Positions 28,670-50,949 of a stretch of 64,000 nucleotides of DNA are shown here, piece after piece (positions within the stretch are counted from its first letter, which is position 1; each line of letters begins with the position of its first letter). Position numbers and translations under genes: made by a program. Source of the stretch: an uncultured Bacteroidales bacterium (GTDB lineage Bacteria; Bacteroidota; Bacteroidia; Bacteroidales; Muribaculaceae); assembly GCA_902782465.1 (NCBI GenBank), contig CACZNH010000011.1, positions 1-64,000 of the forward strand. Direction: 5' to 3'. The notes below the pieces were generated by a model that saw only the letters and a program-made list of their open reading frames with translations, did not search any database and was not told where the DNA came from.

Positions 28670-30757
28670 ATGAAACGGATTTATAGTATTCTAACGTTGA
28701 TGGCCTTGCCCTTGTTGATGCTGGGGCAGGGTTGGCCGTCGAATTATGGCGGCGTGATGCTGCAGGGATTCTATTGGGATTCCTATAACGACAGCAAGTG
28801 GACAAACCTCGAGTCTCAGGCCGATGAATTGGCCGAGTTCTTCAAACTGGTGTGGATACCGCAGAGCGGTAACTGCGGCGGCTATACCTCGATGGGCTAC
28901 GATGACCTGTACTGGTTCACAAACTACAACAGCTCCTTCGGCACCAAGGCGGAGCTGCAATCGATGATCAACACCTTCAAGGCCAAGGGCGTCGGCACCA
29001 TCGCCGACGTGGTCATCAACCACCGTAAGAATGTCTCCAACTGGGTGGACTTTCCTGCCGAGACCTACAAGGGTGTCACTTACCAGCTCAAATCGACCGA
29101 CATCTGCCGCGATGACGACGGCGGGGCAGCCCTTAGCTGGGCTTCCTCTCACGGCTACTCGCTGAGCAGCAACAACGACAGCGGTGAGGACTGGAGCGGC
29201 CTGCGTGACCTGGACCATGCCAGCACCAACGTTCAGAAAAGCGTCAAGGCCTACCTCAACATGCTGCTCAACGACTTGGGCTATGCCGGTTTCCGCTATG
29301 ACATGACCAGGGGCTATGCTGCAAGCTATACGGGCCTGTACAACGCCTATGCAGTGCCCACATACTCGGTTGGCGAGTATTGGGACGGCAACCTGAGTGC
29401 AGTGAAGTCGTGGATTGACGGCACTAAGGTCAACAATGTGGTGCAGAGCGCCGCCTTTGACTTCCCCTTCCGCTACACCGTGCGTGACGCCGTTAACAAC
29501 AACAAGTGGACTAACCTGTCGGGCACGGGCAAGGGCCTGAATATGGAGGCCAACTACAAGCGCTACGCGGTCACCTTTGTCGAGAACCATGACACGCAGT
29601 ACCGCGACGCCAGCAACCCGCAGGACCCCCTCAACCAGTATGCCGAGGCGGCCAATGCCTACATGCTGGCCATGCCTGGCACCCCTTGCATCTTCCTCAA
29701 GCATTGGATGGACTACAAGGAAAGCATCAAGCAGATGATTTACGCACGCCAGCTGGCAGGCATTACAAACACCAGTTCGACGGCCCAGCAGGCTTACAAC
29801 TCCTCGTCCAACTACTATGCCCAGCGCACTACGGGCACGCGTGGTATGTTGATTGCCGCCATGGGCAGCACCTCCTACTCAATCCCCTCGACCTACGTCA
29901 CGGTATTGAGCGGCACAAACTATCGCTTGGCGCTGAGCAAGAGCACCGAGACGGCGTGGGCAAGTGTCCCCAGTGGCAAACGTGTGGACCCGTTCCAGGT
30001 CAAGCTCACCGCGGTGAGCCAGACTGCAGGCGCTCAGATAGTCTATACTCTCGACGGCAGTGAACCCACCGCCACCAACGGCACTGTCATTGCCAGCGGC
30101 AGCGACGTCACCATCAACCGTTGCCTGACCCTGAAGGCGGGCCTGCTGATTAACGGTGCGGTGACAGGCATCATCACACGCAACTACCTCGTTGTAAATG
30201 AGGTATATGACTCCTACGAGATTACTGTCTATCTCAAGGACCCGACCGTCGCACCTAACAATTGGTCTAACGTGGTTTACTACTGCTGGGACAGCAACAA
30301 TGTGCAGCAGTGCGGCAACTGGCCCGGCGAGACGATTACCGATACCCGCATCGTGGGCGGTGTGAAGTTCTATTACAAGACTTTCACCATTACGGGCAGC
30401 CAGTACTGCGTGAACTTCGTCTTCAATCAGGGCGGCAGCACTGCCAGCAGTCACCAGACCGTCGATGTGACGGGCGTGAGGGAAACCTCCTTCTTTGAGG
30501 TGACCACTCAGACCAACAAGTACCAGGTGAGCGATGTGACCGACACCTACTTGCCCCTGTTGAACGGCGACTTCATCAGAGGCGATGTGAACGGTGACGG
30601 ACAGGTCAGCATCGGTGACATCACCGACCTGATTGACTACATCCTGAATGGGACAGTGCAGTCATTTGTCTTTGAGGCCGCAGACCTCACGGGCGACGGC
30701 ATCATCGGCATCGGTGATGTGACAGACCTGATCGACTTGATTCTGAATGGGGCATAA
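28670..30757 (+). CDS. Secreted alpha-amylase (GH13) with CBM26-like module and dockerin
   Basis: 695 aa. Short Sec signal (MKRIYSILTLMALPLLMLGQ), no lipobox. GH13 barrel about 22-440 with ADVVINHR, nucleophile D211 in FRYDMTRG, acid/base E236 in VGEYWDG and stabiliser D308 in VENHDTQ. A chitobiase-like beta module (about 440-510: QIVYTLDGSEPTATNGTVI) is followed by a CBM26-type starch-binding module (about 520-625: ITVYLKDPT...VVYYCWDSN...NWPG). The dockerin (about 638-695) has two calcium loops, DVNGDGQVSIGDITDLIDYI and DLTGDGIIGIGDVTDLIDLI. It would cleave alpha-1,4 bonds in starch outside the cell. Lipid anchoring, used by Bacteroides SusG, is absent, so the dockerin may provide attachment. 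Confidence 0.92.
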   Translation: MKRIYSILTLMALPLLMLGQGWPSNYGGVMLQGFYWDSYNDSKWTNLESQADELAEFFKLVWIPQSGNCGGYTSMGYDDLYWFTNYNSSFGTKAELQSMINTFKAKGVGTIADVVINHRKNVSNWVDFPAETYKGVTYQLKSTDICRDDDGGAALSWASSHGYSLSSNNDSGEDWSGLRDLDHASTNVQKSVKAYLNMLLNDLGYAGFRYDMTRGYAASYTGLYNAYAVPTYSVGEYWDGNLSAVKSWIDGTKVNNVVQSAAFDFPFRYTVRDAVNNNKWTNLSGTGKGLNMEANYKRYAVTFVENHDTQYRDASNPQDPLNQYAEAANAYMLAMPGTPCIFLKHWMDYKESIKQMIYARQLAGITNTSSTAQQAYNSSSNYYAQRTTGTRGMLIAAMGSTSYSIPSTYVTVLSGTNYRLALSKSTETAWASVPSGKRVDPFQVKLTAVSQTAGAQIVYTLDGSEPTATNGTVIASGSDVTINRCLTLKAGLLINGAVTGIITRNYLVVNEVYDSYEITVYLKDPTVAPNNWSNVVYYCWDSNNVQQCGNWPGETITDTRIVGGVKFYYKTFTITGSQYCVNFVFNQGGSTASSHQTVDVTGVRETSFFEVTTQTNKYQVSDVTDTYLPLLNGDFIRGDVNGDGQVSIGDITDLIDYILNGTVQSFVFEAADLTGDGIIGIGDVTDLIDLILNGA

Positions 30758-30782
30758 AGCCTCGTATGGAAACACCTGTTTG

Positions 30783-30822
30783 AGCCTCGGTTTTGGAGAG
30801 TTGTCTTTAAAAAACCGGGGCT
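30783..30822 (+). terminator. Possible terminator after the dockerin amylase
   Basis: 12-bp stem with one G-U pair (30783-30794 with 30811-30822) around a 16-nt loop. The tract after the hairpin is not T-rich. Confidence 0.45.
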
Positions 30823-30849
30823 TATCCTTGATGACTGAATATTTTTGCT

Positions 30850-30857
30850 TATTTTTG
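30850..30857 (+). promoter_or_regulatory. Putative -7 box of the YfhO-family gene
   Basis: TAttTTTG, 38 bp before the ATG at 30896; no clear -33 box. Confidence 0.45.
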
Positions 30858-30895
30858 CAAGTTCAAATCAAGAGAATAACTAATCAACAGATATA

Positions 30896-33427
30896 ATGAA
30901 AAGTAGCTTAGACAAGAAACTGATTGGGTCGCTGTCGCTTGCCGACGTGATTCACTTTGCGATTGCGGTGGTAGTCTTTGCCGCCATTTCGTGGATTTAT
31001 TTCTATCCCAACGCTGTTAACGGTGATGTCATGCAGCAGCACGACGTCATGCAGGGCATAGCCAACAGCCAGGAAATTAAGGCATTCCAGGAACAGACGG
31101 GTGAGAATTCCTGGTGGACCGATGCCCTCTTTGGCGGTATGCCCGCCTTCCAGATTGCGCCGACCTACGAGGGCACGACAATGCTCTCGCCTGCATCGGC
31201 GCTCTACCGCCTGTATTTCCCCACACCGGTGAGCTGGCTGTTTATCCTGATGCTGGGCTTCTTCATCCTGATGCTCGCCTTCAAGGTCAAATGGTACTAT
31301 GCCGTGCTGGGTGCCATCGGCTATGCGTTCTCGAGTTACTTTTTCATCCTCATGGGCGCCGGCCACATCTGGAAACTCATGGTGCTCGCCTATATCCCGC
31401 CCACCATCGCCGGTATCGTGTGGTGCTATCGCGGTAAGTACTTGGGCGGTATGGCCGTGGCAGCTTTCTTTGCTGCATTGCAGCTGGCAAGCAACCATGT
31501 GCAGATGACCTATTACTCGATGTTCCTCATCGTGGCGCTGGTCATCGGCTATCTCGTCAAGGCCATCCTCGACAAGCAGGTGGGACGCTGGTGCATCGCT
31601 ACGGCATGCCTGGCGGTTGCCGCATTGCTCGCGCTGGCAGCTAACTCGCCCAACCTGATGATGACCTATAAGTACTCCCAGGAGACCATGCGCGGCGGCC
31701 ACAGCGAACTCGCCTCTACAGGCGAGGATGCCGCTTCTGCCAAGCCCACCAAGGGCGGCCTCGACAAGGACTATATCACCCAGTGGAGCTATGGCAAGGA
31801 CGAGACCTTCACCCTGCTCATTCCCAACGTGAAGGGTGGTGCCACCATCAAGCCCGAGCATGGCGAGAACAAGCCGCTGCTGCTGAGCGATACCAAGAAG
31901 GCTCAGACGATGGCGAACAACGGCGAGATGAATCAGCAGGATGTGCAGATTCTGAGCCAGTTCCCGCAATACTTCGGTGACCAGCCCATGACCAACGGCC
32001 CCGTTTATGTCGGTGCCCTGATTTGCGCCCTGTTCCTGCTGGGCTGCCTCATTGTCAAGGGCCCCGTGAAATGGGCTTTGCTCATTGCCACCATCATCAG
32101 CATCCTGCTCTCGTGGGGCCACAACATGATGTGGCTCACCGACTTGATGATTGACCACTTCCCGATGTACAACAAGTTCCGCACTGTGGCATCAATCCTT
32201 GTCATTGCCGAGATTGCGATGCCCATTCTGGCAGTCCTTGGCCTTCGTGAGCTTTTCAAGAACCGTGATGACTGGCAGAAGTACAAGTTGCCGTTGATGA
32301 TTTCCTTCGGCCTGTGCGAATTGGTCTGCCTGCTGGCAGCTATCTTCCCGGGTATCTTCGGCCACTTCTCGGCCACAGAATACGAGCAGCTGGTAGCTAC
32401 GGGACAGATTCAGCAGTATCCCAGCGTTGACGCAGCTATCGCCACCGTGCGTGGCGCATTGGTTAGCGGTGACGCTTGGCGCAGCTTTGGTATACTTCTC
32501 GCTGGATTTGCCGCGATCATGTTCTATCTCAGGGGTTTAGTCAACGAGATGGTGGCTACGCTCATCATCGCCGGCATCGTGCTGGTGGATATGTATGGTG
32601 TGAACAAGCGTTACATCAACACTGACACCTTCACCTCGCGCTACGACTTGCCCGAGCAGCAGTTTGCTCCCCGTCCCGTCGACACCCAGATTCTGCAGGA
32701 CAAGGACTTGAACTATCGAGTGATGGACATGCAGCACTTCGGTGAGGCGATGCCCAGCTACTTCCATAAGACTGTGGGAGGTTATCATGCCGCCAAGTTG
32801 ACGCGCTACAATGACCTCATCTTGAATCAGATTACCAAAAACAACATCCAGGTGCTCAATATGCTCAATGCACGTTACTTCATCCTCGATGACCAGACGG
32901 TGCAGCGCAACCCTGACGCACTGGGCAATGCTTGGTTTGTGGACTCGCTCACCTATGTGGACAATGCCGATGCCGAGATGGCTTTCCTCGACGACTTCAA
33001 CCCCGCCCGCAGCGCTGTTGCCGACGCCAAGTTCCGTCAGCAGCTGGGCGAGGCCAAGGCAGTCCAGCCCGGCGATACCATCTACGAGACATCTTATGCC
33101 CCCAACCACCTGACTTACAAGAGCCACAGCGCCAATGGCGGTTTGGCGGTATTCAGCGAGATTTATTTCCCGTGGGGATGGAACGTGACCGTTGACGGCA
33201 AGCCTGCCGAGATGGGACGCGTGAACTACGTCTTGCGTGCCCTGCAGTTGCCTGCCGGTGACCACGAGATTGACTTCAAGTTTGCCCCTGCTGAGGTGAA
33301 CAAGACGCAGACGTGGGCCAAGGTGGCTGTTATTGCCATCTACATCCTGCTCTTGCTGGCACTGAACTACGCCCTGTTTGGCGATAAGCTGTTCCGCAAG
33401 AACAAGGAAGAGGCCCCTAACACCTAA
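30896..33427 (+). CDS. YfhO-family multi-pass membrane protein
   Basis: 843 aa with about 12-13 transmembrane helices. The first loop is large and periplasmic (HDVMQGIANSQEIKAFQEQTGENSWWTDALFGGMPAFQIAP), as in YfhO/GT-C-like glycosyltransferase-fold proteins. A soluble domain at about 560-800 has the motif YHAAKLTRYNDLILNQITKNN and the ending IYFPWGWNVTVDGKPAE...LPAGDHEIDFKFAP, common to this family. YfhO in Gram-positives decorates lipoteichoic acid with sugars; in Bacteroidetes the substrate is unknown. It is followed 11 bp later by a methyltransferase-like gene. Confidence 0.85.
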   Translation: MKSSLDKKLIGSLSLADVIHFAIAVVVFAAISWIYFYPNAVNGDVMQQHDVMQGIANSQEIKAFQEQTGENSWWTDALFGGMPAFQIAPTYEGTTMLSPASALYRLYFPTPVSWLFILMLGFFILMLAFKVKWYYAVLGAIGYAFSSYFFILMGAGHIWKLMVLAYIPPTIAGIVWCYRGKYLGGMAVAAFFAALQLASNHVQMTYYSMFLIVALVIGYLVKAILDKQVGRWCIATACLAVAALLALAANSPNLMMTYKYSQETMRGGHSELASTGEDAASAKPTKGGLDKDYITQWSYGKDETFTLLIPNVKGGATIKPEHGENKPLLLSDTKKAQTMANNGEMNQQDVQILSQFPQYFGDQPMTNGPVYVGALICALFLLGCLIVKGPVKWALLIATIISILLSWGHNMMWLTDLMIDHFPMYNKFRTVASILVIAEIAMPILAVLGLRELFKNRDDWQKYKLPLMISFGLCELVCLLAAIFPGIFGHFSATEYEQLVATGQIQQYPSVDAAIATVRGALVSGDAWRSFGILLAGFAAIMFYLRGLVNEMVATLIIAGIVLVDMYGVNKRYINTDTFTSRYDLPEQQFAPRPVDTQILQDKDLNYRVMDMQHFGEAMPSYFHKTVGGYHAAKLTRYNDLILNQITKNNIQVLNMLNARYFILDDQTVQRNPDALGNAWFVDSLTYVDNADAEMAFLDDFNPARSAVADAKFRQQLGEAKAVQPGDTIYETSYAPNHLTYKSHSANGGLAVFSEIYFPWGWNVTVDGKPAEMGRVNYVLRALQLPAGDHEIDFKFAPAEVNKTQTWAKVAVIAIYILLLLALNYALFGDKLFRKNKEEAPNT

Positions 33428-33438
33428 AGCCTAACACC

Positions 33439-34143
33439 TTGTTTCAACTGAAACGATACATGAATGCTTGGAGCCGCCACCACCGCAGTGGCGGCTTCGG
33501 CATACATTCGCCTTATGCCTACAAGTTTGTGCGCAACGTGTGGCGTCAGCGACTGCCTTATTATGCCTACGGCGGCATCCGCCAGCTGATAGACACCGTC
33601 AAGGCGGGTACAACGCGCCAGCAGCACCGCGAGATGGACCTCATCAGCAAACGTGAGGCGAGGCTCTTGTTCAGGGTGACGAATTTCTTCAACCCTTATT
33701 ATATGCTGCAGGTGGGAGCCTCGACCGGCATCGAGAGCGTTACGATGCTGCAGGTGAACAGCCAGAGCAGTCTGTGCCTCTGTGATCCGCAGCTGGAGCA
33801 GAATGCGCTCGCCATGCGTGTGTTGCGGACGCAGTTGGGTAGGGTGGAGTGCTACGATGACATCAAGGTGGCGACAGATGAATTTCTGGAGGACGGAAAA
33901 GCCGATGAGAGCCCCTTGTTGGCGCTGGTTAACACCCCTATGGATGAAGAGATGCTGAAACGCCTGCTGGACGCCCGGTGTGTCGTGGTGATGCGCAACC
34001 TGAACCGCAACGAGGCCATGTCCCGCCTGTACGATGCCTGCTGCGCCTATATGCCCGCTGGCCAGACCTACACCAACAACAAAATCGCCATCCTCAATCC
34101 CAATCCCAAACTCCAGCGCGAGGATTTCCTCCTCTGGCTGTAA
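33439..34143 (+). CDS. Class I SAM-dependent methyltransferase-like protein
   Basis: 234 aa. The N-terminus RHHRSGGFGIHSPYAYKFV matches the RHGxGxHSPFVF opening of a Bacteroidetes methyltransferase-like family. MLQVGASTGIESVTMLQVN resembles motif I and CLCDPQ the acidic end of strand 2, but the usual glycine pattern is loose, so activity is uncertain. The frame can begin at TTG 33439 (MFQLKRYMNAW), which gives the expected length, or ATG 33460. It follows the YfhO-type gene by 11 bp and is likely cotranscribed. Confidence 0.65.
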   Translation: MFQLKRYMNAWSRHHRSGGFGIHSPYAYKFVRNVWRQRLPYYAYGGIRQLIDTVKAGTTRQQHREMDLISKREARLLFRVTNFFNPYYMLQVGASTGIESVTMLQVNSQSSLCLCDPQLEQNALAMRVLRTQLGRVECYDDIKVATDEFLEDGKADESPLLALVNTPMDEEMLKRLLDARCVVVMRNLNRNEAMSRLYDACCAYMPAGQTYTNNKIAILNPNPKLQREDFLLWL

Positions 34144-34166
34144 CTTTGACAAAGGAAACAATAGAA

Positions 34167-34200
34167 AAGCCGCCTTGCAGAACGCTCTGCAAGGCGGCTT
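34167..34200. terminator. Bidirectional intrinsic terminator
   Basis: Perfect 14-bp stem (34167-34180 with 34187-34200) with a 6-nt loop, between the convergent methyltransferase-like and FKBP genes. Confidence 0.8.
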
Positions 34201-34226
34201 GTGGTTAGTGGGTTATTCCCGCAGAA

Positions 34227-35111
34227 TTATTTCTTCTTCATCTGGGCGGGGATGTTAATCTTGGGAGCAGCGGGCTTGGGGCTGTCATCCAGACCTACGG
34301 TCTCGATGTCGAAAATCAGAGTCTCGTTGGGCTCGATGCCGCGGTTGCCCTCGGGGCCGTAAGCCAGCTCACCGGGGATAACAACGGTTACCTTGCTGCC
34401 GGGCTTCATGAGCTGAATCATCTCAGCGAAGCCGGGGATGACCTGCTTGAGGTTGAAGGGAACGGGGTTCTCACCGCTCTTGTCAAACTCGGTGCCATCG
34501 AGGTGGCGGCCAACGTAGTTCACCTTAACCACGTCGCTGTCGCTGAAGTTCTTGCCCTCACCAGCTGCCAGCACCTTGTAAGCGATACCGCTCTGGGTGA
34601 AGGTATAGTCCTTGTCGCTCTTGAGCTTGCTCATGTATTCCTCACCTTTCTTCTTGTTGTTGATAGCCTTGGGGGACTGCTCCATGGTCTTCTTCAACAG
34701 GGGCTCAATCTTGCTCTGCAGGGCCATCATGTCTTCCTGACCAACGGGAGTGGTCTTCATCAAAGCCTCACGCAGGTGCTTCATAAACAGGCTCTTGTTC
34801 ATGGGCATACCGCACTGCTGCTCGATACCCTGATAAAGCTGAGCAATCTGCATACCCAGCTGCAGACCTGCCATGAAATTCTTGCTGGTGTCAGCATTGG
34901 CGATGTACTCGATACCCTTCAGGGCCTGCTCCATGTTGATGGTGGAGTCCATGCCGCGCAGCTGCTGGCCCATACCAGAACCATAGAGGTCACCGAAAGC
35001 CATACTCAGGGAGTCCATCGACTCGCTGCTGCCGCTAGCACCCTTGCTGTTGCAACCTACAAAACCAACGGTCAACAGACCGGCTGCTGCAATTGCTAAA
35101 ATCTTCTTCAT
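34227..35111 (-). CDS. FKBP-type peptidyl-prolyl isomerase lipoprotein (FKBP_N + FKBP_C)
   Basis: 294 aa. Lipoprotein signal with lipobox GFVGC (C20), so anchored to a membrane facing the periplasm or surface. Residues about 30-165 form the helical FKBP_N dimerisation domain; about 170-275 the FKBP domain (VKVNYVGRHLDGTEFDKS...QVIPGFAEMIQLMKPGSKVTVVIPGELAYGPEG...LIFDIETV). It assists folding of exported proteins at prolyl bonds. It is the last of three consecutive FKBP genes in one transcription unit. Confidence 0.92.
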   Translation of the reverse strand: MKKILAIAAAGLLTVGFVGCNSKGASGSSESMDSLSMAFGDLYGSGMGQQLRGMDSTINMEQALKGIEYIANADTSKNFMAGLQLGMQIAQLYQGIEQQCGMPMNKSLFMKHLREALMKTTPVGQEDMMALQSKIEPLLKKTMEQSPKAINNKKKGEEYMSKLKSDKDYTFTQSGIAYKVLAAGEGKNFSDSDVVKVNYVGRHLDGTEFDKSGENPVPFNLKQVIPGFAEMIQLMKPGSKVTVVIPGELAYGPEGNRGIEPNETLIFDIETVGLDDSPKPAAPKINIPAQMKKK

Positions 35112-35168
35112 AATAATAAAACTAGTTTTTTAAATGAATTGAATGTTGTTATAAATAATGTTTATTGG

Positions 35169-35687
35169 TTATTTCTTATTGACCTTAATCAACTCGACGT
35201 CAAAGATAAGTGTGGAGTTGGGCAGAATGTTTTGGGTTCCCTTGGAACCGTAAGCCAGTTCGCTGGGAATGAACAGTCTGTACTTTGAACCTTCGCTCAT
35301 GAGCTGCAGACCCTCGGTCCAGCCGGGAATGACTTTGTCAAGGGGGAAGGTGGCGGGCTCGCCACGGTCCACACTGCTGTCAAATACCGTGCCGTCCAGC
35401 AGCTTGCCGGTATAGTGTACGGTAACTTCGTCGGTGGGACCAGGCTTGGCACCGGTGCCTTCTTTCAGCACCATATACTGCAGGCCGCTCGTGGTTTGGA
35501 CTACGCTGTCGTTCTTGGCGTTCTGCTCCATGAACTCGCGGCCAATGGTCTTGTTGTCCTTAATCTGCTGGCCGTAGTCGGGAGCTGCCTCTTCGGTGGT
35601 CTCGGTACTCTCTTTCTGCGTGTTGTTGCAACTTGCCATGCCTGTGAGCAGCAGGGCTGCCATGGCAATGGATAAAACCTTCTTCAT
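35169..35687 (-). CDS. FKBP-type peptidyl-prolyl isomerase lipoprotein
   Basis: 172 aa. Lipoprotein signal with lipobox GMASC (C20), a short acidic linker, a short helix (EFMEQNAKND) and a single FKBP domain (about 75-170: VHYTGKLLDGTVFDSSVDRGEPATFPLDKVIPGWTEGLQLM...PSELAYGSKG). This is a compact form lacking most of the FKBP_N domain. It is the middle member of the tandem set, 57 bp before the third gene and 45 bp after the first. Confidence 0.92.
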   Translation of the reverse strand: MKKVLSIAMAALLLTGMASCNNTQKESTETTEEAAPDYGQQIKDNKTIGREFMEQNAKNDSVVQTTSGLQYMVLKEGTGAKPGPTDEVTVHYTGKLLDGTVFDSSVDRGEPATFPLDKVIPGWTEGLQLMSEGSKYRLFIPSELAYGSKGTQNILPNSTLIFDVELIKVNKK

Positions 35688-35732
35688 TGTTCTTATCAGG
35701 AGTTGATGGTGTGATAGAATAATAGACTGCGT

Positions 35733-36320
35733 TTACTTCTTCTCGACCTTGAGCAACTGCACGTCAAAGATAAGCGTGGAGTTGGGCTGGATGGGACCCG
35801 TACCATGGGGGCCGTAGGCAAGGTTAGAGGGAATGAAAAACCTGTATGCTGCACCCTCGCGCATCAGCTGCAGACCTTCGACCCAACCAGGGATGACCTG
35901 GCCAACAGCGAAGGTTGCGGGCTCACCGCGCTCAACACTGCTGTCAAATACGGTGCCGTCAATCAGCTTGCCGGTGTAGTGTACGGTAACTACGTCATTG
36001 GGGCCGGGTTGGAGGCCGTCACCCTCTTTCACGACCTGATACTGCAGACCGCTCTCGGTAACCTTCACGCCCTCGACCTCCTTGTTCTTCTCCAGGAACT
36101 CGCGACCCAGACGCTCGTTCTGCTCGGCGCCCTGCCTCTCAAGATTGGTGAAAAATTCGGTGACTATCTGTTTGGCCTCGTCAAAGGTCATCTTCTGCTC
36201 TGCACCCTCATAGATGGCTCTCAGTCCATCAGCAAAGTCGTTGATATCCAGTTTCTTAATGCCTGATCCGATGAAGTTTCCTCCCATGCTCAAGCCTAAT
36301 GCGTAACTCAGTTTATCCAT
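35733..36320 (-). CDS. FKBP-type peptidyl-prolyl isomerase without signal peptide
   Basis: 195 aa. The protein starts directly with an FKBP_N domain (MDKLSYALGLSMGGNFIGSG, helices to about 85) followed by an FKBP domain (VTVHYTGKLIDGTVFDSSVERGEPATFAVGQVIPGWVEGLQLM). No signal peptide, so it is predicted to be cytoplasmic, unlike its two downstream relatives. The FKBP domain is nearly identical to that of the middle gene, which suggests tandem duplication followed by loss or gain of a lipoprotein signal. It leads the operon. Confidence 0.9.
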   Translation of the reverse strand: MDKLSYALGLSMGGNFIGSGIKKLDINDFADGLRAIYEGAEQKMTFDEAKQIVTEFFTNLERQGAEQNERLGREFLEKNKEVEGVKVTESGLQYQVVKEGDGLQPGPNDVVTVHYTGKLIDGTVFDSSVERGEPATFAVGQVIPGWVEGLQLMREGAAYRFFIPSNLAYGPHGTGPIQPNSTLIFDVQLLKVEKK

Positions 36321-36352
36321 TGAAAAATCTAATATTTTTGTAAAAAACGGTG

Positions 36353-36411
36353 CAAAGATAGTGATTTCCTCGATTAGGGTGTACGTTTTTAGAAAAATTT
36401 TACTATTTTTG
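36353..36411. promoter_or_regulatory. Divergent -7 boxes for the FKBP operon and the sirtuin gene
   Basis: TAtcTTTG on the minus strand (36360-36353), 33 bp before the first FKBP gene, and TAttTTTG on the plus strand (36404-36411), 44 bp before the sirtuin start. Confidence 0.5.
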
Positions 36412-36455
36412 CTTTCACATTATATAAAAGATACGCTAACCAACCAAATAAACCA

Positions 36456-37166
36456 ATGACTATGAGCAAGAAGAAACTAGTGATTTCATCAGGTGCCGGC
36501 ATGAGTGCCGAGAGCGGCTTCAAGACCTTTCGTGATGCCGATGGCTTGTGGGAGAACTATCCCGTGATGGACGTGGCCAGTCACGAGGGGTTCCTGCGTG
36601 ACCCCGAACTCGTCCACAACTTTTACAACATGCTGCGCAAGAAGCTGTTGGATGCCAAGCCCAATGCGGCCCACCTGGGACTGGTAGACTTGGAGAAGGA
36701 CTTCGATGTGAGGGTGATTACCCAGAATGTGGACGACCTGCACGAGCGTGCAGGCAGTTCCAGTGTATTGCACCTGCACGGTGAGTTGATGAAGGTGCGC
36801 TCGCTGCGTCGCGAGGAACGTGAGTACACGCTGCCCTGTGACCAGTTGTCCGACAAGGGACTCGAAACGAGCGTGGATACCCTGGACCCCTATGGCGACC
36901 ATGTCAGGCCACACATCGTGTTCTTTGGAGAGGCTGTGCCCAATATGGAAGCTGCAGCGCGATTGGCACAGGATGCCGATATCTTTGTGGTCATCGGCAC
37001 GACGCTGGTGGTTTATCCTGCTGCTGCCCTCATCCAGTATGTAAGGCGCGGTGTGCCCATTTATTACATCGACCCCAAGCCGGCAGCCGTTCCCGACTGG
37101 GTCCATGTCATCCCCAAGCCCGCAACCCAGGGCGTCGCCGAACTCATCGACATCCTGCGCAAGTAA
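36456..37166 (+). CDS. Sirtuin-type NAD-dependent deacylase lacking the zinc cysteines
   Basis: 236 aa. NAD-binding GAGMSAESGFKTFR (residues about 13-26), TQNVDDLHERAG (about 90-101) and the catalytic histidine in HLHGE are intact, as are the GTTLVVYP and IDPKP strands. The zinc ribbon normally set by four cysteines after HGE is replaced by RREEREYTLPCDQLSDK with only one cysteine. It would remove acyl groups from lysines and make O-acyl-ADP-ribose. ATG 36456 gives MTMSKKK; the ATG at residue 3 is equally possible. Confidence 0.88.
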   Translation: MTMSKKKLVISSGAGMSAESGFKTFRDADGLWENYPVMDVASHEGFLRDPELVHNFYNMLRKKLLDAKPNAAHLGLVDLEKDFDVRVITQNVDDLHERAGSSSVLHLHGELMKVRSLRREEREYTLPCDQLSDKGLETSVDTLDPYGDHVRPHIVFFGEAVPNMEAAARLAQDADIFVVIGTTLVVYPAAALIQYVRRGVPIYYIDPKPAAVPDWVHVIPKPATQGVAELIDILRK

Positions 37167-37235
37167 TGTGATGCTTTCCGTCCTGTTAGTGACGGTGTGG
37201 TAATGTGATGGCTTCCGTCCCATAGGGACGGTGTG

Positions 37236-37874: not shown

Positions 37875-37943
37875 CTGGTCGTCCCTGACGGGACTCGATG
37901 ATGCAGCAGGCCTCAATAGTTAAAGGCTCTCTCCTCACTACAC

Positions 37944-37980: not shown

Positions 37981-37981
37981 C

Positions 37982-43764: not shown

Positions 43765-43833
43765 GATAGGGTATAGTTATGGCTGTTTCATGCAATGTTT
43801 TACATGAAACGGTAGGTTAAACTTTAGTCAATT

Positions 43834-44877
43834 TCAGTCTGGATTCCAAGAGTGTACACTCTTGGTTTTGTTCTCGAGGAGATCGACCATGCTTTCGAGG
43901 AAAAGGAGCTCGTTTTCCTTGAGTTTGGACTTGGATTTGAGTTGCTTATAGATGCTGGCAAGTTGCCGCATAGCGATTTTCAGGTCGGTCTGGTCAAGCC
44001 CCTCGGTGTCCTTGCACAGGTCATAAAGTTTGGACAGATAGATGTAGTGTGCGCTGTTGTTGTCCTGCAGTTTCTCGACATAGAAGAGCATCTTTTGTAT
44101 CCAACTGTTGGCGTCATTTTTACTTGAACTAGAACTGGATGAGGAAAAAGAGAAGGAATGGCTCTTGTTGTCCGACAAATCAGAGAGTGCTTCTTGGGCT
44201 TTTTCCATGGCAGCTTGATACTTGTCCATACCTTGATGGTACTTTTCCATGCCAGCTTGGAATTGTTCCATGTACTTGTCATAATCGTCCAGATTGATAA
44301 CCACAGAGCTGAGCCGATGGCCATCATTCGCTTTGGCTTTGATGGGGGCATAGGTGGTAATGATGCGCCCGCTGATGCTGTCGCTGTCGTCCATATTGCT
44401 CCACTCCAGGGTGTAGGTCTTGCGGTGCTGCTTGTCGTCGGGAGCGACAAACGCCACGGTGTAACAGTGGTCACAAGCCAATCCCACGACAATGGCATTA
44501 TCCGGGTTATAATAGAGACGATAGCCTTGGAAATCCCTGTCGTTGTCATTCCACCACAGGGTATAGATATCTGCGTTGCTGTTGCCATTCACTTGCTCAT
44601 AGACCTTTTTGGCGTTGTTTATCAGGTCAATGCCATTGTGGTCGATGGTAAACTTGAAGACATCAAGCTGGCCCTCTTTGATTCCGGTCTCGGGGTCGGA
44701 ATAGATACTGACCATTTGCTCACGTGAAGCTAAGGAGACAGCGTTAATGATGTCATCAAAAGCCGTTTGCAGCCTGTCCTCATAGACGTTGGCACTTGCC
44801 ATGAACGTGGTGAACAATGCCATGATCAAGGCCGTGATGACGGCAATGATTGAGATGTTATTATTTAGAGTCTTCAT
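43834..44877 (-). CDS. Secreted or membrane-anchored protein of unknown function in the sigma factor unit
   Basis: 347 aa. N-terminal hydrophobic segment (about 9-30, signal or anchor). A globular domain (about 32-190) is followed by a helix-rich segment with heptads (MEQFQAGMEKYHQGMDKYQAAMEKAQEALS), a serine-rich spacer of about 12 residues (SFSFSSSSSSSSK) and helical C-terminus. No recognised family. It overlaps the anti-sigma gene by 4 bp (ATGA), which suggests translational coupling and a role in the same pathway. Confidence 0.65.
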   Translation of the reverse strand: MKTLNNNISIIAVITALIMALFTTFMASANVYEDRLQTAFDDIINAVSLASREQMVSIYSDPETGIKEGQLDVFKFTIDHNGIDLINNAKKVYEQVNGNSNADIYTLWWNDNDRDFQGYRLYYNPDNAIVVGLACDHCYTVAFVAPDDKQHRKTYTLEWSNMDDSDSISGRIITTYAPIKAKANDGHRLSSVVINLDDYDKYMEQFQAGMEKYHQGMDKYQAAMEKAQEALSDLSDNKSHSFSFSSSSSSSSKNDANSWIQKMLFYVEKLQDNNSAHYIYLSKLYDLCKDTEGLDQTDLKIAMRQLASIYKQLKSKSKLKENELLFLESMVDLLENKTKSVHSWNPD

Positions 44878-45551
44878 AATGCCGGGATATTGGTTGATGG
44901 TTGGTTGTTTAATTCGTTTTCTATTTCCTGGTTGAGGTCGATAAACACGATGTTACCGTCCTCGTCCTGTATGGCCTTGTAGCCCATCGCTTCCATGTCG
45001 ATGATGAAGGCACGGCGCTTCAGGTCGTCGAGTTCGCGTTGCAGGCGCTCGTTCTCGCGGGCCAGGCTGTCGTTACGGGCCTTCAAGCGGCGTGTGGATC
45101 TGGACGACCGTGCATTTCGTGCCGGTGCAGCTTGCCGTGCTGGAGATGCAGAAGCCAGTTGCAGGGGCTCGGTTTCCACAACAGGTGGGGTAGCGACAGA
45201 GTCAACTGTTTCAGCGATGAAAGGTGGCGAATCGGTTATAGTGGACTGTGTCGGCTGATGTAGCACAGTGGTTCCCACAATGGCGGCGGTGATGACGGCT
45301 GCGGCAGCGATACCCCACCATTGGCGGCCCATCTGCCTGTTCAATGACAGGTGCGGCGCTTGCTCGCTCACCAGGTCTCCCTTCATGCCGCGGTCAAAGT
45401 AGTCGAACATGTCACGGTAGTCCTCCCACTCCGCGGGCACGTCGCCGCTGCGGAAGTAGTCGGCCAGCAGGGCCTCTTCTTCCACGGTGGTCTGCCCGTC
45501 CATGAACTTGTCGAGCAGTGCCTCAATTTGTTGATGTGAATACCGTTTCAT
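44874..45551 (-). CDS. Membrane anti-sigma factor-like protein
   Basis: 225 aa. N-terminal cytoplasmic segment with the pattern IEALLDKFMDGQTTVEEEALLADYFRSGDVPAEWEDYRDMFDYF, common in Bacteroidetes proteins encoded next to ECF sigma factors. One transmembrane helix at about 79-99 (WWGIAAAAVITAAIVGTTVL) and a periplasmic coiled coil (about 150-190). It probably sequesters the sigma factor encoded immediately upstream, with which it overlaps by 4 bp. It lacks the FecR domain of Bacteroidetes sugar-linked anti-sigmas. Confidence 0.7.
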   Translation of the reverse strand: MKRYSHQQIEALLDKFMDGQTTVEEEALLADYFRSGDVPAEWEDYRDMFDYFDRGMKGDLVSEQAPHLSLNRQMGRQWWGIAAAAVITAAIVGTTVLHQPTQSTITDSPPFIAETVDSVATPPVVETEPLQLASASPARQAAPARNARSSRSTRRLKARNDSLARENERLQRELDDLKRRAFIIDMEAMGYKAIQDEDGNIVFIDLNQEIENELNNQPSTNIPAL

Positions 45552-46114
45552 TGTCTTTCCTTTTTATATTGCCTGATTTCTTCCAGCAGTTGCCGTCGTG
45601 CACGTGCCAGCAGCGTGCTCACGCTTGACTCCTTGATGCCCAGAATGCCGGCGATTTTGGCGTTGTCGCAGTGTTCCACTTGCCTCATGTGCAGCACTGC
45701 GTGCAGGGTGGGCGGCAAATCCCTGATGCGCTCCTGTAGCCATTGTTCGTCCTCACGCTGCACGATGATGTCCAGGGGCGAGGGGGACGTCTGGCTCACG
45801 GCTTGCCGCTCGTCGAGCGGCAGTGGCGGCTTGCGCCGGGCGCGGTTCAGGGTCAGGTGGCGGGCAATCGTCGAGGCATAGCCTTCGGGATTGTGGAGCC
45901 GGGGCTCGTCACGCATTTGCATAATCCTGTCGCGACTCTGCCGTTCAAGCTCGCTTGATGGCGCTCGCTGCTCCAGAATCTGCCACAGGCGCAGCATCGT
46001 CTCCTGGGCGATGTCCTCGGCTGTGTCGGCATCGGCGCCCGCTGTTGCGGCCGCTTGCAGAGCCAATGCCCTGAGCCGAGGTGCCTCGTGTTCAAATGCG
46101 TCTTTCGTCATCAA
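45548..46114 (-). CDS. ECF-type RNA polymerase sigma factor
   Basis: 188 aa. Region 2 is about 12-90 (ADADTAEDIAQETMLRLWQ) and region 4 about 128-180 (LPPTLHAVLHMRQVEHCDNAKIAGILGIKESSVSTLLARARRQL), with no region 3, as in extracytoplasmic-function sigma factors. First gene of a four-gene unit with anti-sigma, unknown secreted protein and outer-membrane receptor. It likely transcribes the receptor or other surface genes when the anti-sigma is released. The start at 46114 is MMTK; the next Met is equally possible. Confidence 0.9.
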   Translation of the reverse strand: MMTKDAFEHEAPRLRALALQAAATAGADADTAEDIAQETMLRLWQILEQRAPSSELERQSRDRIMQMRDEPRLHNPEGYASTIARHLTLNRARRKPPLPLDERQAVSQTSPSPLDIIVQREDEQWLQERIRDLPPTLHAVLHMRQVEHCDNAKIAGILGIKESSVSTLLARARRQLLEEIRQYKKERQ

Positions 46115-46222
46115 ATTCTGTTCGTTTTTCGATTGCTACACTACTATAACACGTTAGGCTCCCGTTTTTGAACAGCAAAACGGGATTATTTAAGTTTTTT
46201 TAGCCAAAAAATCAAAAAAGCC

Positions 46223-47497
46223 TCAATGCGTCATGTGATTGTGGGAGAAAAGGCGTTGCGGCAGCTCCATGGCAAGGATGATGCCCAAGACAATGGCCAT
46301 GGCGATTTTGCAGGCCACCCATCCGCTCTGCATCGAGAGGCCGAACTGTTCGTCGGTGAGGTAATATGTGAACCAGAAAATGCCTGCTCCCGGCACCAGC
46401 GGGAAGATGCCGCACAGGAGAAATCCCTGGGCTGGGATACGGAACGGGATGGCAGCGAAGCGGGAAAGGATGCAGACCACCGTGGATGCCACAAAGGTAG
46501 CACCTGTGGCCGAAGCACCGAACTGGCGCACAAGAATCAGGTAAATCGCCCATCCGATGGCGCCAATCACGCCTGCGGGAATATAGTGTTCACGGTCAAT
46601 GCCGAAGAGCAACGCAAATGCAGCCGTACCGGTAAATGCCGCGATGAATTGCCAGAACAGGCTGGCCGTCTCTGGGCTGACCATCATGGTCAGCTCTGCT
46701 ACGCCACTGTGCATTGAACCGTCAAGAATAAATGCGAGTGACACACCCACTGCGATGCAGAAGAAACCGAGCATTGCATCGGTGAGACGTGTAAAGCCGG
46801 CAAGGTAGTCCGAGTTGGCCAGGTCGCGCACGCCATTGATAAAAGGCACTCCGGGTATCAGTGGCATGATGGCGCCGATGATGATGTTGGCAAGGCTGAG
46901 GCCGGAGCCTATGCGCCAAGCGAGAATGCAGAGCATCGTGGCCAACAGTGCATTGCAGACGCCACTGACAATCTTTGAAAAATAACGGCTGCTCACACCC
47001 ATGACAAAGCCATACAGCAGCAGCCCAACGACAAGGGCCACTCCACACTCGGCCCATCCTCCGCCAAACACGGCGCAGAAGCCTGCGGCACCGATTCCGG
47101 AGCCCAGAATCTGTTCCCATGCCGGTTTGGGTGCGGCAGTGCTAATCTGTTCCAGCCGTTCTCGGGCTTCGGCCAATCCTGCTTTGCCGTTGGCGATATC
47201 ATAGCTCAGGCGGTTTACGGCCACCACTTTAGACAGTTGGATGCCCCTGATGGGGATGAATTCCACGTTGGCATAGGTGGATGCCTGTCCTCCCGACTTG
47301 GTGATTTTATTGGCATGGCCTGTTGTGAAAATGCCGTTGGAGAGCACAAAGAAATTGCCCGAGTCGACACCATAATGCGATGCGATGCGGCTCATGATAT
47401 CTTCAACTCGCGAGATTTCAGCTCCGTTCTCCAGCAGGATGTGTCCCGCCTTGGCAGCTACATCCAGTACTTCGGTAAAATCAGCTTGGTTGGTCAT
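46223..47497 (-). CDS. Threonine/serine exporter family protein (ThrE-like, fused)
   Basis: 424 aa fusing the two halves found separately in E. coli as YjjP and YjjB. The N-terminal domain (about 1-125: LLENGAEISRVEDIM...FVLSNGIFTT) is followed by about ten transmembrane helices (ASGFCAVFGGGW, GAIMPLIPGVPFINGVRDL). It would export threonine or serine, or succinate as for YjjPB, through the inner membrane. It lies 42 bp after the CPBP protease gene. Confidence 0.88.
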   Translation of the reverse strand: MTNQADFTEVLDVAAKAGHILLENGAEISRVEDIMSRIASHYGVDSGNFFVLSNGIFTTGHANKITKSGGQASTYANVEFIPIRGIQLSKVVAVNRLSYDIANGKAGLAEARERLEQISTAAPKPAWEQILGSGIGAAGFCAVFGGGWAECGVALVVGLLLYGFVMGVSSRYFSKIVSGVCNALLATMLCILAWRIGSGLSLANIIIGAIMPLIPGVPFINGVRDLANSDYLAGFTRLTDAMLGFFCIAVGVSLAFILDGSMHSGVAELTMMVSPETASLFWQFIAAFTGTAAFALLFGIDREHYIPAGVIGAIGWAIYLILVRQFGASATGATFVASTVVCILSRFAAIPFRIPAQGFLLCGIFPLVPGAGIFWFTYYLTDEQFGLSMQSGWVACKIAMAIVLGIILAMELPQRLFSHNHMTH

Positions 47498-47539
47498 TTT
47501 TGCAATGGGTTTTCTTGCTTGTTTTTCAGTTTAGTGTGA

Positions 47540-48370
47540 TTACTCTACTTGGCGTCGGTGACGGTTGTAGAGGAAGACGATGGTAAGTATTATGCCGTAG
47601 ATGACGGCGATGATGGAGGCTTCGGGACCAAAGGCGCCTCCAGTGATAATATCGGGGCCGCTGACGGTGGTGGCAAGTATCGTGTCGCCCGCATCAGCGC
47701 CCGAGACCGCAAGTCCGAAGATGTTGCCCTGGGTATAGTTCCACGCCCAGTGGATGCCGATGGGTACCCACAGCGTGCCTGACCACTTGTAGGCAGCGGC
47801 AATCAGCAGCCCTGCCTCGACAGAGATGGCAAGCGACGACCACCACGTGGCATTGTCATTGGGCATGTGTGCAAACCCGAAAAACAGGGCCGACACCAGT
47901 AGGGCCACCCAGGTATTCCAGCGCTCGTCAATCCAGCGGAAGATGACGCCGCGGCAAATCATCTCCTCGCCCACGGCAACACCAAGGAACATCATGATGA
48001 CACTGAATTGCTTTTCGCCCGAAAAAGCGCTCCATTGCACTGTAGCACAGCCTGTTGCCGAGATGGTGCACACCACAATCACCATATAGATGAAACCCAC
48101 AAGCAGACCCAGTAACATGTGGGGGACGAGGCGGCGCAACGGCAGGTCGGTGGGCCAATGCTTCTCCATCAGCTTGACAAACAAGGCATACATGCCCAGG
48201 ATGATGGCGGCGAATACGATAGTCAGCCCCGGGTGATGGATGTTGTCCGATATCTCAAAACCAGTGACCAACAAGCCATAACCAATGAAGGAAAGGATAA
48301 TAGCTGTGATAAACAGCAAGAGCCATTTCCATAGTGGACATTTTTTATAATGAGTAGCCGTTGTTGCCAT
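47540..48370 (-). CDS. CPBP-family intramembrane metalloprotease
   Basis: 276 aa with about eight transmembrane helices. The family motifs are visible: GEEMICRG (EExxxR, residues about 139-144), FGFAHMPN (FxxxH) and HWAWNYTQG (HxxxN). CPBP proteins (CAAX and bacteriocin-processing) cleave within membranes; bacterial ones act in bacteriocin immunity or unknown processing. The gene begins 7 bp after crcB and is probably cotranscribed. Confidence 0.9.
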   Translation of the reverse strand: MATTATHYKKCPLWKWLLLFITAIILSFIGYGLLVTGFEISDNIHHPGLTIVFAAIILGMYALFVKLMEKHWPTDLPLRRLVPHMLLGLLVGFIYMVIVVCTISATGCATVQWSAFSGEKQFSVIMMFLGVAVGEEMICRGVIFRWIDERWNTWVALLVSALFFGFAHMPNDNATWWSSLAISVEAGLLIAAAYKWSGTLWVPIGIHWAWNYTQGNIFGLAVSGADAGDTILATTVSGPDIITGGAFGPEASIIAVIYGIILTIVFLYNRHRRQVE

Positions 48371-48377
48371 ATCCTTA

Positions 48378-48755
48378 TTATTTCATCACCGTTTGTGAAA
48401 GCCAGTTGCCTAACAGCAGAGCGATAAAGCCCACAGCGAGTGAGGCGAGCAGGTACATGGCGGGCATGAGCATATTGCCATCCTTGGCCAATGTGCCGCA
48501 CTCGTTGATGAAGGTGGAAAAGGTGGTGAAACCGCCGCAAAATCCCGTCGTGAGCAACAGCCGCGTCGTGGGTGACATCCAGCCGCCGTCCCATTTCAGG
48601 CCATAGAGCAGCCCGATGAGGAAACACCCCACCACATTGACGGTAAATGTCCCCAGCGGGAACCCCGCCGCAACGGGCAGAAGTCTCGAGACGACATATC
48701 GCAGCCCTCCACCGAGGAAACTGCCAAGCCCCACTATCATAAAATCCTTGAACAT
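48378..48755 (-). CDS. crcB: Fluoride ion transporter CrcB/Fluc
   Basis: 125 aa with four transmembrane helices. Motifs: GLGSFLGGGLRYVVSR, GTFTVNVVGCFLIGLLYG and GFCGGFTTFSTF, the fluoride pore signature. It forms a dual-topology dimer that expels fluoride. I use ATG 48755; a GTG precedes it at 48758. A TAccTTTG box (48768-48761) ends only 5 bp upstream, so the message may be leaderless. No fluoride riboswitch fold was seen upstream. Confidence 0.93.
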   Translation of the reverse strand: MFKDFMIVGLGSFLGGGLRYVVSRLLPVAAGFPLGTFTVNVVGCFLIGLLYGLKWDGGWMSPTTRLLLTTGFCGGFTTFSTFINECGTLAKDGNMLMPAMYLLASLAVGFIALLLGNWLSQTVMK

Positions 48756-48760
48756 CACTG

Positions 48761-48768
48761 CAAAGGTA
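48761..48768 (-). promoter_or_regulatory. -7-like box immediately before crcB
   Basis: TAccTTTG on the minus strand, 5 bp from the ATG. If used, transcription would begin at or next to the start codon. Confidence 0.45.
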
Positions 48769-49059
48769 TGAAAAAGTTTTGGGTTTTCACTCCCTGGCTT
48801 GAAGTTTCTGCTTAGGAAATCCGCTGATGCACGTAAAAGATATTTTTATCTGTGTGGCAGATGCCGTAAAATCGATGAAATGATGCAAAATCTCAACGAA
48901 ATCGGTTTAGATTTTTGGGATATAGATAAACCTTTAATTTATTGTAAGACTGATGGATAGTTTTTGTTTTGGTTTAGATTTTTCCTTTGATATGGTGTGA
49001 ATTGAGCTAATTATGTGTACCTTTGCCTATCAACATCAAAAGAAATAACAATAACCAAG
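48769..49059. other. Gap of about 290 bp between crcB and the amylase gene
   Basis: AT-rich region holding the divergent promoters: the crcB -7 box at its left edge and TAccTTTG at 49018-49025 for the amylase. I see no further gene, repeat or RNA structure. Confidence 0.6.
49018..49025 (+). promoter_or_regulatory. Putative -7 box of the PUL amylase gene
   Basis: TAccTTTG, 34 bp before the ATG at 49060. The nearest TTTG upstream (48986-48989) is 28 bp away, too far for a standard promoter, so an activator may be needed. Confidence 0.55.
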
Positions 49060-50949
49060 ATGAAACGTTTATTTTCAACTTCCATCCTAGTGATGATAGT
49101 CTTGCTCGTCCAGGCTGCGGTCTATGAACCCACGCTGTCGAGCGATAGCGAAGTATGTGTGTTTTTTGAGGCTGACGGCACGGTGACCGATGCCCCCAAG
49201 ATTTGGGCATGGGAAGGCAATACCGACGGCCGCACCTATGTGGGGACGGCATGGCCCGGTCCTGCTATGACCTATATGGGTGATACCCAGAGCGGAAACA
49301 AAATCTACAAGTGGACCTATACCGGCTCGCTGGCGACCCCCACGGGACTCATTTTCACCTGGAACAATGAGGGCGGACGTGTCGATGGCACGTTCAACAA
49401 TCATGGCTACTATGTGATGGGCCGCCTGACCAAGGTCATCGGGGCAGGGCAGAGCACCTTTGTTCCCAACCAGAATGTCATCTATCAGCTTGACCTGTAC
49501 AACTTTACCAGTGCGGGCACCCTGGCCGCCGCCCAGCAGCGCCTGGACTACCTCAAGGACCTGGGCATCGACGTCATCTGGCTCATGCCCATCCATCCGC
49601 GTGGCCAGCAGGGTCGCATCGGTTCGCTGGGCAGTCCTTACGCTCCCCGCGACTATCATGCGGTGAACAGCGATTTCGGTACGCTGGCCGACCTGCAGGC
49701 GTTTGTCGCCGCCGCCCATCAGCGCGGTATGCAGGTGTGGCTCGACTGGGTCGCCAACCACACCGCCAAGGACAACGTGTGGATTACCCAGCACCGCGAA
49801 TATTACAACTCCACGCTCACCAGCCCCAACGGCTATGGCGACGTCTATCAGCTGGACTACAGCAAGGAGGCTACCCAACTGGCGATGATTGAGGCCATGG
49901 AGTACTGGGTGGACCAGGCCGACATCGACGGCTTCCGTTGCGACTACATCAGCAGCAACACCATCCCCACAAGTTTCTGGACCCGCGCCATCAAGGCGTT
50001 GAAGGAGTTCAAGCCCGGCAAGACCGTCACCATGCTGGGCGAGGGTGACATGGCCAACAGCGTGCAGCGCCTGCTCGTGTGCGGCTGGGACTATGACTAC
50101 GCTTGGGGCTTCCAGTCGGCGCTGGTCAACAACAAGACCAACCCGTCGGGCGTCCTCTCGCAGTGCCGCAACCTGGTGGGTGACATGCGATTCACCGACA
50201 TGAGCCGCATGGTCTACCTCACCAACCACGACCAGAACTACAACAGCTCGATGAATACCCAGTACGGCAACAACGTCTATGCCTTCACGGTGCTCACGTT
50301 CACCCTCTACGGCATGCCGCTGCTCTACAACGGCCAGGAGACGGGTTACCTGTTGTCGCGCAAGCTGGACTACTTCAACCGCACGCCCATCAACTGGAAC
50401 AGCGTTGACAGCAAGATGGTGAACACCGTCAAGGCCTTGACGGCCCTCAAGCACAGCTGCGACGCCCTCATCGACAATGGCGACCGCGCCACCGAGGTGA
50501 CCTTCCTGAACACGGGCAACAACAACCTGATGGCCTATGTCCGCCACCACAACGACCAGCAGTGCCTGGTAGTGCTCAACTTGGGCAGCTCTCAGGTGAG
50601 CACCGTGGTCTCGGGCATCGAGGCCGGCGAGTGGAAACTGGCCATCGATGTCAACAACATCTCGGCTGGCTTGACCTCCCAGCCCGTGCAGCTCAACGCT
50701 ACGCAGAGCTTCACTGTGCCTGCCGGCGGCTTCAAGGTCTATGTCAAGGGTGAGCCCAGGCCCGGTTATCTGCAGGGCGACGTGAACCTGGACGGCAGTG
50801 TGAACATCTCGGATATTTCGGAGCTTATTGACCTTATCCTTAATGGGACGGTACCTGCCGAGATTTTTGCCTATGCTGATGTCAACGGCGACGGTTCGGT
50901 CAACATCTCTGACATCACAATGGTGATAGACATTATATTAAATGGTTAA
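49060..50949 (+). CDS. Secreted alpha-amylase (GH13) with N-terminal starch-binding module and dockerin
   Basis: 629 aa. Sec signal (MKRLFSTSILVMIVLLVQAA) without a lipobox. A CBM26-like starch-binding domain (about 22-115: VCVFFEADGT...IWAWEGNTDGRTYVGTAWPG) precedes the GH13 barrel with DWVANH, nucleophile D295 in FRCDYIS, acid/base E328 in LGEGDM, stabiliser D391 in TNHDQN. The C-terminal dockerin (about 570-629) has DVNLDGSVNISDISELIDLIL and DVNGDGSVNISDITMVIDIIL. ATG 49060 is chosen over 49015 because it begins a clean signal peptide. First gene of the starch locus, taking the place of SusG. Confidence 0.92.
   Translation: MKRLFSTSILVMIVLLVQAAVYEPTLSSDSEVCVFFEADGTVTDAPKIWAWEGNTDGRTYVGTAWPGPAMTYMGDTQSGNKIYKWTYTGSLATPTGLIFTWNNEGGRVDGTFNNHGYYVMGRLTKVIGAGQSTFVPNQNVIYQLDLYNFTSAGTLAAAQQRLDYLKDLGIDVIWLMPIHPRGQQGRIGSLGSPYAPRDYHAVNSDFGTLADLQAFVAAAHQRGMQVWLDWVANHTAKDNVWITQHREYYNSTLTSPNGYGDVYQLDYSKEATQLAMIEAMEYWVDQADIDGFRCDYISSNTIPTSFWTRAIKALKEFKPGKTVTMLGEGDMANSVQRLLVCGWDYDYAWGFQSALVNNKTNPSGVLSQCRNLVGDMRFTDMSRMVYLTNHDQNYNSSMNTQYGNNVYAFTVLTFTLYGMPLLYNGQETGYLLSRKLDYFNRTPINWNSVDSKMVNTVKALTALKHSCDALIDNGDRATEVTFLNTGNNNLMAYVRHHNDQQCLVVLNLGSSQVSTVVSGIEAGEWKLAIDVNNISAGLTSQPVQLNATQSFTVPAGGFKVYVKGEPRPGYLQGDVNLDGSVNISDISELIDLILNGTVPAEIFAYADVNGDGSVNISDITMVIDIILNG

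Follow-up and report, generated by a model that had tools for sequence, protein, structure and literature searches.

The window examined here is a stretch of 64,000 nucleotides, contig C11 of a 3.13 Mb rumen Muribaculaceae assembly (94.8% complete), and it encodes five secreted proteins bearing dockerin-type modules, two of them amylases. Both amylases belong to glycoside hydrolase family 13 (GH13), lie on the plus strand, and combine a signal peptide with a C-terminal dockerin. The first spans 28670..30757, with its dockerin at 30581-30733 (Pfam Dockerin_1, E 2.6e-7). The second spans 49060..50949, has a weak CBM26 match and ends in a dockerin at 50776-50937 (E 2.9e-12); its frame has an alternative upstream GTG start at 49015. 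Both terminate 3-7 residues past the dockerin match, and neither carries a C-terminal sorting domain of the type IX secretion system (T9SS). The other three are a small secreted protein (27671..28408, plus strand; C-terminal dockerin at 28229-28390, E 1.5e-8), a C10 peptidase with an I69 propeptide domain (22292..24652, minus strand; C-terminal dockerin at residues 733-777, about 22322-22456, E 4.4e-7), and a secreted leucine-rich repeat (LRR)/DUF285 protein (136..2373, plus strand). The last has half a Dockerin_1 module (residues 705-731, about 2248-2328) at 21.0 bits, below the 22.9 cut-off, and no second half was found in the three frames just downstream. The original prediction for this DNA had described five secreted dockerin-type proteins, with the amylases lacking the lipobox of a lipoprotein. 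Inspection of the sequences bears out both points: four proteins have Dockerin_1 matches and one a half module, and by eye no N-terminal lipobox is visible in either amylase or in the one other GH13 protein found in the window, at 17303-19228.

The second amylase leads a series of plus-strand genes in a starch utilization system (Sus) context. In order, these encode a DUF6377 protein (50968..52644), which we take to be SusR-like from its position, a SusC-like TonB-dependent receptor (52946..55903), a SusD-like lipoprotein (55919..57748), a CBM26 lipoprotein that is SusE/F-like by position (57780..59201), and GH97 (59358..61424). An amylase beside SusC, SusD, a CBM26 lipoprotein and GH97 recalls the Bacteroides Sus locus. 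In contrast to the surface lipoprotein SusG, the amylase here lacks a lipobox and has a dockerin at its C-terminus; among its neighbors in the locus, the SusD-like and CBM26 proteins each show a lipobox by eye. From gene order, a SusG role cannot be told apart from that of the periplasmic SusA.

The module on the second amylase was also modeled from an alignment with 36 orthologues. The predicted fold is all-helical with three helices (mean predicted local distance difference test score, pLDDT, 86.4). A Foldseek search with this model returned dockerins as matches 1-30 of 48 in the PDB, the best E-value being only 6.8e-3, and comparison of the alignment with PDB sequences gave 30 matches at E <= 0.001, nearly all to dockerin proteins (best 5.7e-10). 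The profile matches Amy16 (E 8.9e-6) and Amy12 (9.5e-5) of Ruminococcus bromii in the PDB.

Dockerins are abundant throughout this genome, where at least 150 Dockerin_1 matches fall in 145 frames. This count is a lower bound, in that scoring covered 150 of 272 candidates, every one of which matched; with E-values down to 9e-14, a chance origin of the matches is ruled out. The match lies within 20 residues of the protein end in 110 of the 145 frames, 21-60 residues away in 4, 61-120 in 4, and further away in 27, many of which are cut by the fetched stretch. According to a simple heuristic rule used in place of SignalP, 133 of the 145 frames have a signal peptide without a lipobox, 3 have a lipobox-like stretch, 8 have neither, and one is cut. 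Some dockerins of this genome precede further modules, such as an FGE-sulfatase or a recurring 'WVDLGLPSGTLWATCNVGA' module (for example C3:29507, C6:50914, C9:121225 and C20:50553), and a TAA falls within one matched dockerin stretch (G000:C6:196239-196316).

Each module consists of two calcium-loop-helix repeats of about 22 residues, and both calcium loops are readable in 132 of the 150 modules, the other 18 being left out of the counts of loop type. At loop position 14, 49 of the 132 have Asn in both loops (N type), 61 have Thr or Ser in both (T type, as in the second amylase of the window), 4 have one of each, and in the remaining 18 one or both loops show some other residue. That is to say, the two loops agree in 110 of the 114 N-or-T modules (odds ratio 747). 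Ile occupies position 10 in 89% of first loops and 90% of second loops, and positions 10, 11, 17, 18, 21 and 22 are those which we presume to face a cohesin. The cargo dockerins comprise two types with agreeing loops, as expected of a symmetric binding face. Agreement of this kind is not needed by a calcium-binding cap, and so argues against a purely stabilizing role, in which cargo dockerins would bind no cohesin and dockerin-cohesin pairs would be structural dyads that build no assembly.

The likeness among these dockerins is not mainly the product of recent copying of one cassette, which is ruled out by a median nucleotide identity of 0.59 between first loops (a few pairs reach 0.98) and by codon entropy. 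At nine conserved positions per loop, codon entropy is 69-104% of the level elsewhere in the same proteins, so the likeness is maintained mainly by selection. As for the proteins that carry dockerins, a scan of 110 of the 145, the other 35 frames being not cleanly of N or T type, placed 28 LRR_5, 14 Peptidase_C10 and 5 alpha-amylase proteins among the 25 commonest families per set. Polysaccharide-degrading enzymes are not the main cargo of those scanned. The original prediction had proposed an assembly akin to an amylosome, and the part of it that stands is the presence of dockerins on secreted proteins without a lipid anchor together with the idea of a cohesin partner, the candidates being ten cohesin-like domains encoded by this genome and, in congeners, scaffolds with six cohesins (see below). 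The starch-specific part is not supported, and because LRR proteins and C10 peptidases outnumber amylases, the term amylosome is too narrow.

The expansion of dockerins belongs to one genus. In a sample of 79 family genomes, all six members of the genus have at least 69-71 matches each, whereas the 73 others have 0-9, with at least one in 25 of them. A larger sample of the genus was dockerin-rich in 41 of 41 genomes, with at least 28-122 matches each. The T9SS translocon SprA occurs in 78 of the 79 family genomes, that of the window included, and since SprA is family-wide and the expansion confined to the genus, T9SS alone does not explain it and is ruled out as its simple cause. This observation bears on the proposal that the T9SS recognizes the dockerin itself for sorting, so that it substitutes for the Ig-like C-terminal domain and a cohesin is unnecessary. 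The C-terminal position of most dockerins (in 110 of 145 no more than 20 residues follow), the lack of a lipobox on most of these proteins, the presence of SprA and the small number of TIGR04183 tails in this genome (nine) would all suit such a signal. We nevertheless hold it to be quite improbable, since the family shares the T9SS without sharing the expansion, some dockerin proteins bear a T9SS tail as well, and the all-helical dockerin is unlike the T9SS tail, whose fold is rich in beta structure. Nor is it clear that the genus has fewer tails, with 9-16 per genome versus 2-63 elsewhere.

Relatives of the second amylase of the window comprise 53 frames in 52 named loci. The closest named relatives (79-86% identity) come from Bacteroidales genomes assigned to Muribaculaceae, Prevotellaceae or Porphyromonadaceae, and the sample names of many of these point to ruminants. 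A C-terminal dockerin is present in 36 of 36 near orthologues (L103-L138) and in none of the 17 distant ones, several of which resemble lipoproteins by eye. Retention in all near orthologues is a further point against a merely stabilizing cap. Among 37 amylase modules, 30 are T/T, 2 N/N and 5 other, and the enzyme has therefore switched dockerin type between species. The amylases of L139-L141 end in a short motif that resembles the end of a T9SS tail and is scored by neither TIGR04183 nor a tail model built from seed sequences; replacement of a T9SS tail by the dockerin is accordingly not established.

A partner for these modules was sought as cohesins across the full genome, the check that the original prediction had proposed. 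An iterated search of fetched stretches, beyond a lone Pfam Cohesin match considered below, revealed cohesin relatives in five further frames, and an alignment of nine domains finds ten cohesin-like domains in this genome. Individually, three of the nine match Pfam Cohesin (best 1.3e-6), and the nine-domain profile matches the NagJ cohesin weakly (E 0.0036). A wider profile of 84 domains from seven genera, with one of 85 representatives left out where it adjoins masked sequence, matches scaffoldin cohesins in the PDB (5n5p_A, 2e-7; 6kgc_A, 3.3e-4; 5m2o_A, 0.0023; 5aoz_A, 0.0035). This profile detects cohesins in 41 of 41 genomes of the genus (1-16 domains, median 8), but across the order it detects any in just 14 of 119. 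Judged by these profiles, proteins of the genus carry divergent cohesins homologous to solved scaffoldin cohesins. Since this genome and all 41 congeners have them, the outcome that would have spoken against the original prediction, a complete genome with no cohesin, is not what was found. The same result argues against a different partner for the dockerins, whether a glycan or a surface protein of another kind. A partner of this sort has been suggested for Ruminococcus albus, where dockerins occur and cohesins do not (cited in PMC9763041). Two distinct cargo types would also fit protein partners better. Genomes rich in dockerins where no cohesin was found, described below, favor this alternative, to which we give little credence overall.

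Co-occurrence of the two modules extends beyond the genus. Within the family, outside the genus, dockerins occur in 13 of 17 cohesin-bearing genomes, compared with 12 of the 56 that lack cohesins (p 6e-5). For the order, the figures are 13 of 14 versus 32 of 105 (p 9e-6). In a tree of the cohesins, which rests on few columns and has many weak forks, domains group by their place in the protein, with 22 label changes versus 55.9 in shuffles. In this tree the cohesin of a 2536-residue protein of our genome clusters with cohesins from giant proteins elsewhere; the gene is directly preceded by one for an LRR protein with a dockerin and a T9SS tail (L002 1934-12579, C9).

Inspection of cohesin proteins in the genus reveals several architectures: dockerin-cohesin-tail, cohesin-dockerin-cohesin-tail, cohesin-dockerin-cohesin-dockerin, and six cohesins followed by a C-terminal dockerin. 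Proteins of the last kind (916-921 residues) occur in six congeners (G169, G204, G205, G220, G230 and G233), and in all six the gene adjoins one for a dockerin-cohesin protein with a T9SS-like tail. Five of these adjoining tails were scored with a seed-only model, which detects three (1.2e-5 to 4.2e-5), and with an iterated model, which detects all five; the sixth, from G169, scores 16.9 bits against TIGR04183. In other Bacteroidales, polycohesin proteins carry T9SS tails directly: G003 has proteins with eight and five cohesins and G043 one with four, their tails exceeding the TIGR04183 cut-off of 23 (30.4, 31.8 and 26.9 bits), and no dockerin was detected in these T9SS-tailed proteins with 4-8 cohesins. 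Three further arrays, with ten cohesins in G043, seven in G003 and five in G068, are cut by the end of the stretch or contig. Six cohesins beside a single dockerin, and tailed proteins with 4-8 cohesins, have no internal pairing partner for their cohesins and are therefore hard to read as structural dyads.

Similar layouts were seen elsewhere. G155, of another Muribaculaceae genus, has three cohesins plus a dockerin in a protein encoded beside one with a single cohesin and a short tail; these form, with a dockerin protein bearing a T9SS-like tail, a three-gene set present in three near-identical copies (L225, L226 and L227). In L278, L280, L282 and L283 (G043, G003, G068 and G017), the gene before the polycohesin gene bears a dockerin and a T9SS-like tail; two of these genes match Omp28 weakly, and a neighbor in L241 (G158) matches subtilase weakly. 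Many dockerins within cohesin proteins (L067/L247, L207, L216, L229 and others) look like a third type, for example ...DYVxxANYIL..., that differs from the N and T types of the cargo.

The seed-only tail model was built from 20 seed tails, and none of 3286 shuffled tails scores in it. Applied to the 58 complete cohesin frames left once duplicates were removed, among which at least two (L239 and L213) are masked or fragmentary, it assigns a tail to 12, a dockerin end to 18, a weak call to 1 and no call to 27, a number of which show short tails of the T9SS kind by eye. This count is preferred over that of the iterated model, which gives tails to 28 of 60 cohesin frames and is partly circular.

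The dockerins, cohesins, T9SS translocon, tails and gene order read from these genomes together point to a cohesin-dockerin surface assembly anchored by T9SS, an explanation that we moderately favor. Under it, about 145 Sec-exported proteins (LRR/BspA proteins, C10 peptidases and some glycosidases, including both amylases) form the cargo, each carrying a dockerin that is mostly C-terminal, and mostly without a lipid anchor or T9SS tail. Cohesin proteins with a T9SS-type tail would be exported by the T9SS and held on the outer membrane, and those with a dockerin of their own would plug into the tailed anchors. Cargo dockerins would then bind these cohesins and so keep their proteins on the cell surface, with the dockerin amylase standing in for the lipoprotein SusG of the Sus system. 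We infer the binding, the matching of particular cohesins to particular dockerins, and the surface location from the modules and their arrangement.

Several findings weigh against such an assembly. The only Pfam Cohesin match in this genome, at the N-terminus of the 2536-residue protein, scores 22.2 bits against a cut-off of 24.1. There are about 145 dockerin frames to 10 cohesin domains, with at most two complete cohesins in any one protein of this genome. Six of eight cohesin proteins of the genus match TIGR04183 at 16.9-22.3 bits, all below 23, and two of the eight give no TIGR04183 match; the seed-only model assigns tails to 8 of 35 genus frames, with 13 dockerin ends, 1 weak call and 13 without a call. 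A single-sequence model of a natural cohesin-dockerin stretch from L104 reached a pLDDT of only 37. Part of the co-occurrence described above arises because both modules lie in one protein, and among congeners the number of cohesins tracks genome size (Spearman 0.51) at least as closely as it tracks the number of dockerin candidates (0.41). No dockerin match was found in four family genomes that do bear cohesins (G158, G161, G168 and G171). Dockerin matches occur where no cohesin was found in G085 (at least 49), G105 (23), G108 (20) and G097 (13), from other families, and these may represent another calcium repeat, since most of those listed start at profile position 8-11.

A purely stabilizing role would draw on three of these observations, namely that dockerin and cohesin are often neighbors in one polypeptide, that there are few cohesins per dockerin, and that four dockerin-rich genomes have no cohesin found. 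In light of the agreeing loops, the conserved amylase dockerins and the unpaired cohesin arrays, we regard it as unlikely and rank it second, behind docking on T9SS-anchored cohesins, which we consider the somewhat probable explanation. Stabilizing or sorting modules had been named as alternatives in the original prediction, and both keep some probability.

Docking on anchored cohesins leaves a gap in export, because Sec export by itself takes cargo that lacks a T9SS tail no further than the periplasm. Cargo may cross the outer membrane by co-export on a carrier, by another route, or through a dockerin read by the T9SS. One specific version, which we offer tentatively and judge doubtful, is that the dockerin serves as a portable export-and-anchor tag: cargo would fold in the periplasm, bind a cohesin on a T9SS-tailed carrier, pass the SprA pore with the carrier, and be held on the surface. 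If this were true, a single non-covalent tag would serve about 145 proteins in one genus, and the resulting cellulosome-like assembly, Gram-negative and anchored by T9SS, would be used in proteolysis and adhesion no less than in starch use.

Comparison with known systems places these features in context. Like the R. bromii amylosome, this genome combines secreted dockerin amylases with cohesin proteins. In contrast to that system, the organism is Gram-negative, its cohesins are divergent and T9SS-type tails occur on cohesin proteins, the cargo is mostly LRR proteins and peptidases, and a Sus locus lies beside the amylase. Clostridial and ruminococcal cellulosomes, which use SLH (S-layer homology) or sortase anchors, pair a primary with an anchoring scaffoldin, much as a polycohesin protein with its own different C-terminal dockerin is encoded in congeners beside a surface-tailed cohesin protein; in the latter a T9SS-type tail takes the place of the SLH or sortase anchor, and few glycosidases are among the cargo.

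Dockerins in Bacteroidetes, and cohesins in two camel-rumen bins, are already known from PMC6071333: bin 136 has 5 dockerins and 1 cohesin, and bin 129 has 2 cohesins. PMC7480376 reports dockerins in Bacteroidetes polysaccharide utilization loci with a role 'not defined yet'. Firmicutes accounted for 79 of the 80 cohesin proteins found across 4,941 rumen genomes in a survey (PMC6785717), and PMC5830445 places multi-cohesin proteins in 15 rumen genomes, 9 of them near R. flavefaciens. T9SS tails on cohesin proteins, a genus-wide expansion and a two-gene scaffold-anchor layout are not described in the accessible portions of PMC6071333 and PMC7480376. Nor are T9SS-tailed cohesins described in those of PMC11557425, PMC10266427, PMC9763041, PMC5831590, PMC5830445, PMC6785717, PMC8810776 and PMC3368933, within a scope of mostly non-subscription literature.

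Against this background, every genome sampled from one rumen Muribaculaceae genus has divergent cohesins, and other Bacteroidales have polycohesin proteins with T9SS tails. The question of what dockerins do in Bacteroidetes thereby becomes a set of modules open to expression and testing. As judged from sequence, the findings point to assembly of a cellulosome-like kind in bacteria generally regarded as lacking it. If the predicted binding holds, cellulosome-like assembly would reach beyond Gram-positive bacteria, and the Sus paradigm would include a variant whose amylase is retained through protein docking and not through a lipid.

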